DNA of 64,000 nt from Ruegeria aquimaris (GTDB taxonomy: Bacteria; Pseudomonadota; Alphaproteobacteria; Rhodobacterales; Rhodobacteraceae): contig NZ_JAOWLB010000003.1 of NCBI RefSeq assembly GCF_025751555.1, positions 248,001 through 312,000 on the forward strand, read 5' to 3'. Position numbers and translations under genes: made by a program. Every line of letters begins with the position of its first letter. Position 1 is the stretch's first letter. This document shows, piece by piece, positions 6,585 to 8,482 of the stretch. The notes below the pieces were generated by a model. That model saw nothing but the letters and a program-made list of their open reading frames with translations, was not told where the DNA came from and ran no database searches.

Positions 6585-6608
6585 GTAGGGTGGGCAATAT
6601 TGCCCACC
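6585..6608. repeat. REP palindrome A
   Basis: GTAGGGTGGGCAATATTGCCCACC, an imperfect palindrome with GTAGGGTGGG at its left end. It belongs to the same family as three other copies within 410 bases and lies just beyond ettA, outside the RAYT gene. Confidence 0.8.
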
Positions 6609-6640
6609 ACCTCCATCCGCACCACGCAGGGCGGAAAAAC

Positions 6641-6667
6641 GTAGGGTGGGTTTGAAACCCACCCTAC
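6641..6667. repeat. REP palindrome B, supplying the RAYT stop codon
   Basis: GTAGGGTGGG-TTTGAAA-CCCACCCTAC, a palindrome with 10-base arms. On the minus strand the in-frame TAG of the RAYT reading frame (6664-6666) is part of this repeat, so gene end and REP are fused. Confidence 0.85.
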
Positions 6668-6939
6668 GCAAACTCCCCAAATCGTCCCTCGGGTATGACA
6701 CCCGACCAATCCGCCTCGATCCGCCCTTCCCTAATGTCCCGGTGGATCGACGAGTACGGCCAGTCAACTGGCCGTTCCGCCAACCCATGTTTCACCGGAT
6801 TGAGCCAGCAATAACGCATATGCGCTTCGTAATCGGCGGTATCCCGGATATGATGCTCCCAGAACCGGCGCTGCCATATCCCGGCGTCACCCTTCGCCAC
6901 TTTGCTGCCACTGCGCGCGCATCGCATACCTGCCACGTC

Positions 6940-6963
6940 GGTGGGTTGAAAACCCACCCTACG
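6940..6963. repeat. REP palindrome C, inside the RAYT gene
   Basis: GGTGGGTTGAAAACCCACCCTACG, same family as copies A, B and D. It is opposite in orientation to copy D, with 8 bases between them, so C and D form an inverted pair inside the transposase frame. Confidence 0.85.
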
Positions 6964-6971
6964 CGACCCCT

Positions 6972-6994
6972 GTAGGGTGGGTTTTGAACCCACC
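6972..6994. repeat. REP palindrome D, inside the RAYT gene
   Basis: GTAGGGTGGG-TTTTGAA-CCCACC. It is partner of copy C in a BIME-like pair. In the C-terminal RAYT frame, C, D and flanks encode GSKPTLQGSRRVGFQPTD without a stop. Confidence 0.85.
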
Positions 6995-7359
6995 GCGCCG
7001 ATCTCCTGTGACCGCACCGCCTGGAGAACCGCGCCTTGATCGCGCCCCAGCGTGTCGAGAAGTCGGCATCCCCTTCCGGCAAGGTCCAGATCGCATGCAG
7101 GTGATCCGGCAGAACCACCCAGGCGTCGATTCCGAACGGCCGCGCGCGCCGTGTCTGGCTGACCGCATCGCGCAACAGCTGCACCTGATCCACCAGCAGG
7201 TCACCGCCGCATCTGCTCAGCGCCACCGTGAAGAAGATTGTTGCGCCAGGCCGCTGAGGTCTGATGTAGCACGCCATCGCCAAGCCATAGCGCAACCTGG
7301 TTAACGGATGATCAACGCGGCCCTGTCGCATCGCTCTCCCACGGCCGCGCGACAGCCCG

Positions 7360-7407
7360 GTACAAAACGGTCAATCCGCCCTCTGGAGCCTGTACAAAAC
7401 GGTCAAT
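7360..7407. promoter_or_regulatory. Two identical 16-bp direct repeats, possible operator
   Basis: GTACAAAACGGTCAAT occurs at 7360-7375 and again at 7392-7407, 32 bases apart start to start, close to three helical turns. Such phased repeats suit cooperative binding of a regulator to one DNA face. They lie about 135 bases upstream of the small membrane protein gene at 7541 and beyond the RAYT start. No regulator gene is adjacent, so the function is an inference. Confidence 0.5.
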
Positions 7408-7540
7408 TCGCGCCGAAGACAAACAGGAGCGGTCGACGGAAAATTACGGGATTAACACAATATGAACACATTTCGCGTTAATGTATTGCATCAACGGAGA
7501 CGTCTCATCGTCATGTCTTGAGGATCCGGGGAGAGGAAAC

Positions 7541-7762: not shown

Positions 7763-7963
7763 TCAGAACGCGGTACCGGCCTTGAAACCCAGCTTTTTCA
7801 ACACCATGGCCGCCGGGCAAAAGCCGGTGATCGAAGATTGAATCAAGTTCACGCCGATAAAAACGGTGAGCCACATCCACAGCGGCGAAACCAGCGCGGT
7901 CAGCACTACGCTGAGCAGAACCATGAAGCCGGCAAACATCATCACGGCACGATCGAGGGTCAT
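7763..7963 (-). CDS. DUF2892 (YgaP-type transmembrane domain) protein
   Basis: 66-residue inner-membrane protein made of a helical hairpin: MTLDRAVMMFAGFMVLLSVVLTALVSPLW, then WLTVFIGVNLIQSSITGFCPAAMVLKKLGF. The GFCPAAxxLxxLG ending is the mark of this family, which occurs alone or behind a rhodanese domain as in YgaP and is often tied to sulfide or persulfide handling. The ATG at 7963 is preceded by AGGAG. The gene lies behind trxC on the same strand but has its own promoter with an ATTC-N8-GAAT operator (8035-8050). A second member of the family is at 60037-60228. Confidence 0.88.
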   Translation of the reverse strand: MTLDRAVMMFAGFMVLLSVVLTALVSPLWMWLTVFIGVNLIQSSITGFCPAAMVLKKLGFKAGTAF

Positions 7964-8011
7964 TCATCCAACTCCTGAATAGCGCCGGGCACCCCGCCCG
8001 ACCTTGACTTC

Positions 8012-8050
8012 AATGTAGCCTCGATTTCATTCACATTCAAGTATGAGAAT
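8012..8050 (-). promoter_or_regulatory. Promoter with ATTC-N8-GAAT operator (SqrR/BigR type)
   Basis: On the minus strand the order is ATTCTCATACTTGAAT (8050-8035), which is exactly ATTC-N8-GAAT, with TTGAAT (8040-8035) serving as a -35 element, 17 bases, then TACATT (8017-8012) as -10. The operator thus covers the -35 box. ATTC-N8-GAAT is the site reported for SqrR of Rhodobacter capsulatus, an ArsR-type repressor released by persulfides. The driven gene is the DUF2892 gene 48 bases downstream of the -10. No repressor gene of this family is in the window. Confidence 0.68.
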
Positions 8051-8056
8051 GTAATA

Positions 8057-8482
8057 TCAGTTCTGAATCCAGCTCACGATCTGCCCGGCCCGCATCGCGC
8101 CCGACTGCCGTTTCTTTTCCTTGCCGCGTTCAAAGGCGACCATGGTAGGAATACCCCGGATGGCATATCGCCCGCCGGTCGACTGGTGCCTTTGCGTGTC
8201 GAGCTTGACCAACCGCGCCTGCCCGACAAGGGTGCCTGCCGCCTTGGCATATTCGGGGCCCATCATCTTGCACGGTCCGCACCACGGCGCCCAGAAATCG
8301 ACGACCAGAGGCAAGTCATCGTTTTTCTTTGCTTTTTCCAGGATGGCAGGATCAACATCCACCGCTTCCCCGGTCACCAGACCCTGGCCGCATTTGCCGC
8401 ACTTGGCCCCGGCGGTCAACCGTTCCTCGGGCACCCGGTTCAATTGCCCGCAGGCCAGGCAGGTCAAAGTCTTGTCACCCAT
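8057..8482 (-). CDS. trxC: Thioredoxin 2 (zinc-ribbon thioredoxin)
   Basis: 141-residue cytoplasmic disulfide reductase. Residues 8-33 hold two Cys pairs (CLAC and CGKC) that form the zinc ribbon specific to TrxC; the thioredoxin fold follows with VDFWAPWCGPCKMMGPE (active-site Cys68 and Cys71) and the cis-Pro segment RGIPTM. The ATG at 8482 has CGGAGGCG upstream, which decides against a longer frame that begins near 8515. It lies between the membrane protein gene at 8563 and the DUF2892 gene, all on the minus strand. Confidence 0.95.
   Translation of the reverse strand: MGDKTLTCLACGQLNRVPEERLTAGAKCGKCGQGLVTGEAVDVDPAILEKAKKNDDLPLVVDFWAPWCGPCKMMGPEYAKAAGTLVGQARLVKLDTQRHQSTGGRYAIRGIPTMVAFERGKEKKRQSGAMRAGQIVSWIQN

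Follow-up and report, generated by a model that had tools for sequence, protein, structure and literature searches.

A short gene for a DUF2892 protein in the window (the whole 64,000-nucleotide stretch of Ruegeria aquimaris DNA that was analysed) carries an inverted repeat over its promoter, raising the question of which regulator controls the gene and what this implies for the protein. DUF2892 proteins are widespread, and we know of no function assigned to them. SqrR of Rhodobacter capsulatus is a persulfide-responsive ArsR-family repressor that recognises ATTC-N8-GAAT, the core of this repeat. Our analysis indicates that the site very probably serves as an operator for an ArsR-type repressor from the SqrR/SoxR/BigR subfamily that responds to persulfide (sulfane sulfur) and would be relieved by it, with the DUF2892 gene, a rhodanese gene and sox genes as the candidate regulon. 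What the sequences show directly is the presence and conservation of the site, the regulators that co-occur with it, the motif common to these genes, and the cysteines.

Table 1. Features of the DUF2892 locus and of the related loci elsewhere in the genome (plain numbers are positions in the window)
Feature	Coordinates	Strand	Remarks
DUF2892 / YgaP-like transmembrane protein, 66 aa	7763..7963	-	Pfam PF11127; PDB 2mpn; ortholog alignment
-10 TACATT	8012..8017	-	TATATG/TATATT/TATATC in sister species, at equal spacing
-35 TTGAAT	8035..8040	-	within the operator's right arm; TTGAAT-17-TAnnnT layout recurs in other genera
Operator core ATTC-N8-GAAT (ATTCTCATACTTGAAT)	8035..8050	-	exact match; kept upstream of orthologues
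Extended 6+6 dyad ACATTC-N8-GAATGT	8033..8052 = G000:C33:256033-256052	-	0 mismatches
trxC, thioredoxin 2, upstream neighbour	8057..8482	-	no exact motif ahead of trxC
Sox-cluster SoxR, SqrR/BigR family	G000:C55:100270-100548		beside soxS
Orphan SqrR/BigR-family paralogue	G000:C59:96061-96336		both cysteines
Stand-alone rhodanese, 119 aa	L013:1573-1932 = G000:C11:259715-260071		operator 57 bp upstream
sqr remnant, ~100 residues with internal gap	L209:5723-6238 = G000:C11 ~541,700-542,240		51-60% identical

An exact dyad overlaps the core promoter of the DUF2892 gene

Inspection of the minus strand showed ATTCTCATACTTGAAT running from 8050 to 8035, which confirmed the exact ATTC-N8-GAAT match that the original prediction had placed over the -35 box of a YgaP-type gene. 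The -35 TTGAAT and the -10 TACATT, separated by a 17-base spacer at 8034-8018, were also where they had been predicted. As for the extent of the operator, the proposed 4+4 core stood, but a longer 6+6 dyad had been overlooked; ACATTC-N8-GAATGT with no mismatch was present as a single copy among the matches listed for the genome. The DUF2892 promoter is weak and was absent from the list of the sigma-70 scan, and no known RNA family was found around it. In sister species, the 17-base spacing was kept and the -10 elements were better (TATATG, TATATT, and TATATC). The site at 8033-8052 combines an inverted repeat, conservation, and overlap with the core promoter, the genome codes for cognate repressors, and the site is a candidate operator at which a repressor would bind and be released by persulfide.

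The upstream neighbour is the thioredoxin 2 gene trxC, as the prediction had it, and ends 7 bp before the operator. Because the near-matches before trxC carry two mismatches and none is exact, trxC was not claimed as a regulon member. The trxC-DUF2892 order (window 7763-8482) recurs in the window's genus and in several other genera. No operator lies between the two genes where the gap is under ~80 bp, suggesting an operon in those cases.

Other repeats were also observed in the window. The palindromic repeat GTAGGGTGGGTTT-N-AAACCCACCCTAC occurs in three copies at 6590-7000, two of them inside frames resembling pieces of one REP-type (RAYT-like) transposase; the transposase reading was made by eye only, because Pfam gave no match for these frames. 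Beside this repeat region, two 23-base direct repeats (GTACAAAACGGTCAAT[CT]CGC) lie 32 bases apart at 7357-7411.

The gene encodes a YgaP-like transmembrane protein

The YgaP-type (DUF2892) identity of the gene was borne out by a match of the 66-aa protein to the Pfam model YgaP-like_TM (54.8 bits, gathering cut-off 25.3) and by a match of the orthologue profile to the solved structure of the Escherichia coli YgaP TM domain (2mpn, E = 1.1e-7). Cys49, in the segment TGFCP, was invariant across 18 aligned orthologues. No rhodanese domain was found in the 66-aa protein, which is not a full YgaP sulfurtransferase. The association with BigR-type partners that had been proposed for this protein type also held, and elsewhere DUF2892 genes lie behind sqr or beside BigR-type regulators. 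Of 80 named loci with DUF2892 in other bacteria, 36 had sqr ending within ~160 bp upstream, and 41 had a BigR-type gene within the fetched flank. In Azospira suillum, a DUF2892 transcript rose ~10-fold during H2S oxidation, and deleting the gene changed onset only slightly (PMC5358917).

The motif is retained ahead of DUF2892 genes across the family

A family orthologue set (n = 17) was picked by protein similarity, ignoring the site. The exact motif was found no more than 150 bp from the start in 14 of the 17 DUF2892 orthologues, against a mean of 0.075 in shuffled upstream regions. The half-sites were constant, and the 8-base spacer varied (TCATACTT, TGTAGATT, CGGTTATT, CTAAATAC, and others); several genera again had a TTGAAT formed by the right arm, 17 bases ahead of a TAnnnT box. 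A further figure of 14/16, from 16 named stand-alone loci, was biased because these loci had been chosen after their sites were seen, and it was not counted as evidence.

An unbiased census was made of 395 genomes of one bacterial family, in which 92 DUF2892 upstream regions were read. Among the 84 DUF2892 genes that are not directly behind sqr, 56 carried the exact motif and 11 a version with one mismatch; the remaining 17 stand-alone orthologues had no site, which counts against the proposal. The exact motif was found before none of the eight DUF2892 genes directly behind sqr, as expected if such genes use the sqr promoter. DUF2892 was present in 93 of 302 SqrR-positive and 8 of 93 SqrR-negative genomes (p = 6e-6), and the exact operator occurred in 55/84 SqrR-positive versus 1/8 SqrR-negative genomes (p = 0.005), both p values being uncorrected for phylogeny. 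R. capsulatus itself, sought as a positive control, was absent among the sampled genomes, where the best SqrR identity was 82%. The family-wide conservation of the operator before DUF2892 genes is novel here; no report of it was found in the literature searched.

The motif is shared with sox genes and a stand-alone rhodanese gene

The genome contains 36 copies of the bare motif in total, including those at soxX, between soxA and soxD, and at a stand-alone rhodanese gene. The sox cluster beside the SoxR gene comprises soxS, soxT, soxV, soxX, soxA, and soxD; family models confirmed SoxX, SoxA, and the sulfur transporter, and the remaining sox names rest on position and a reading by eye. In the genome of the window, one copy of ATTC-N8-GAAT immediately precedes soxX, another falls between soxA and soxD, and the soxS-soxV gap contains a near-match with one mismatch. 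In relatives, the soxX site recurs, and usually the soxA-soxD site as well. Against a common operator, the sox sites agree with the DUF2892 site in the core but show AA flanks and a more pronounced inner CA..TG symmetry.

Of 29 orthologues of the rhodanese gene, 23 kept the exact motif upstream, in many cases within the -35/-10 spacer, and the shuffle test gave 22/27 with the motif versus 0.12 expected. In R. capsulatus, sqr and the rhodanese gene rcc01557 are under repression by SqrR, and both rise >10-fold with sulfide or upon loss of sqrR (PMC9995734); the putative rhodanese operator described here agrees with that experiment, in which a rhodanese is an SqrR target. The C11 rhodanese showed no specific closeness to the rhodanese of YgaP. 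No intact SQR of the type of the sqr remnant was found in the genome; the remnant adjoins a YeeE/YedE-type transporter, read by eye. Another copy of the motif, TGCATTCAAGACCGTGAATGCG at L222:1859 (G000:C60:2858-2873), lies 44 bp before a 5-aminolevulinate synthase-like frame (by eye) and may be due to chance.

SoxR is the most likely regulator among two candidate repressors

The original prediction had been staked on the presence of an SqrR/BigR homologue in the genome, and two were found, each with both cysteines: the sox-cluster SoxR and an orphan paralogue. Together with the conserved operator and the motif shared with sox and rhodanese genes, they support the proposed SqrR/BigR-type control of the DUF2892 gene. 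The closest PDB match of both regulators was R. capsulatus SqrR (E = 1.3e-36 for SoxR and about 6e-31 for the orphan). Both contain the sensing cysteines, in LMILC and in a C-terminal LFC, aligned with those of SqrR. Against the BigR model NF040642 (NCBIfam equivalog), SoxR scored 92.8 bits and the orphan 108.7 bits; both were below the cut-off of 155, and they were therefore not filed as BigR proper. No exact motif was found at SoxR's own promoter or near the orphan gene, and the idea that either repressor uses this motif to control its own gene was dropped.

Judged from these sequences, the sox-cluster SoxR is most likely the regulator of the DUF2892 gene. A protein of the SqrR/SoxR clade was encoded in all 32 operator- or orthologue-bearing genomes examined and the orphan type in 16, which, with the co-occurrence of SqrR described above, makes SoxR the parsimonious choice. 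Trees built from a short alignment grouped SoxR with the SqrR/SoxR clade (97/90) and put the orphan in the clade sister to it. The recognition stretch of SoxR is nearly that of SqrR (RQAAVSQQL-x-RLRLEGLV).

It is conceivable, although distinctly less probable, that the orphan is the main binder of the operator, or that both paralogues bind it, rather than SoxR specifically. The orphan is full length for the SqrR/BigR family and contains both cysteines, its BigR-model score exceeds that of SoxR, and each of the five examined members of the window's genus has a protein of its type. However, it was missing from 16 of the 32 genomes, which have the SqrR/SoxR clade only; no motif was found near its gene in the nine family orthologues scanned; and its recognition region, DIRQAAVSQMLARLREEGLV, departs further from that of SqrR than SoxR's does.

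Far less plausible is a site for an unrelated regulator that shares the core, such as a metal-sensing ArsR protein or another dyad-binding repressor. The genome does hold 12 HTH_5 matches, but the motif tracks the presence of SqrR, occurs in sox clusters that encode an SqrR-type protein, and matches the published SqrR/YgaV recognition sequence (PMC9774250). As a separate observation, an SqrR-type gene lies near an RND-type efflux gene (RND by eye) in L118, L119, L120, and L123, and in some genomes ATTC-N8-GAAT is found near that efflux gene.

By count the bare motif is unremarkable, with one copy seen in the window versus 0.82 expected, and most of the 36 copies in the 5.04-Mb genome, many of them within genes, look like chance; significance from motif counts alone was therefore dropped, and the claim depends on conservation. 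These frequencies would fit a palindrome that arose by chance in an AT-rich promoter and is bound by no regulator, but this reading has practically no standing, being rejected by the conservation test because the half-sites stay at a similar position in many genera while the spacer diverges, as the orthologue set and the census show and as the rhodanese upstream regions repeat.

Comparison with known systems

The SoxR-operator pair resembles R. capsulatus SqrR in its motif, its subfamily, both cysteines, a near-identical recognition region, and a rhodanese target, the last proven in R. capsulatus. There, however, sqr is the main known target, whereas here sqr is a remnant, the likely regulator gene belongs to the sox cluster, and DUF2892 would be a target. 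The SoxR proteins of Paracoccus, Pseudaminobacter, and Hyphomicrobium are likewise sox-encoded ArsR-type repressors, with the motif before soxX and in the soxA-soxD stretch, and the Hyphomicrobium protein is a repressor that responds to sulfane sulfur (PMC10451225); their reported sites lie in sulfur-oxidation regions, whereas here an unlinked DUF2892 gene and a rhodanese gene also carry the site.

YgaV of E. coli occupies the ygaVP promoter at boxes that resemble ATTC-N8-GAAT (PMC9774250), which places a similar box at the promoter of a gene for a YgaP TM domain. In contrast to the present case, E. coli YgaP is a single rhodanese-TM chain whose gene shares an operon with the regulator gene; in the genome of the window, the TM-only protein and the rhodanese are separate and unlinked. 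With BigR of Xylella and Agrobacterium (bigR operon), the similarity lies in the repressor subfamily and in rhizobial DUF2892 genes that adjoin BigR-type genes, but the site described here is outside any bigR operon and the regulators fall below the BigR cut-off.

Proposed mechanism and implications

With SoxR as the likely repressor, a reduced dimer on the dyad would cover the -35 box and block RNA polymerase. When persulfides derived from sulfide or thiosulfate rise, sulfur would bridge the two conserved cysteines, a step that, like the release, is drawn from published work on SqrR and SoxR. The sulfur-bridged repressor would then leave the DNA, and the DUF2892 gene would be transcribed along with the rhodanese and sox genes. 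In this scheme we infer binding, the choice of paralogue, derepression, and protein function; the DUF2892 protein is probably a membrane partner in sulfane-sulfur handling, acting with the separately encoded rhodanese much as the two domains of E. coli YgaP work together within a single chain.

More tentatively, and with the balance somewhat against it, SoxR may be a wider persulfide regulator in this family that also controls an unlinked rhodanese and a YgaP-type TM protein with an invariant cysteine, a YgaP equivalent split into two co-regulated genes and kept after the loss of sqr. The split YgaP is an analogy, because the rhodanese has no specific relationship to that of YgaP. Also new are the motif common to DUF2892, rhodanese, and sox genes, and SoxR as the likely regulator where sqr is a remnant.

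These results suggest that in Roseobacter-type bacteria SoxR controls genes outside the sox cluster. The conserved operator ties dozens of DUF2892 proteins to a known persulfide switch and, with the partner set of rhodanese, sox, and sqr, therefore provides a direct handle on DUF2892 function.
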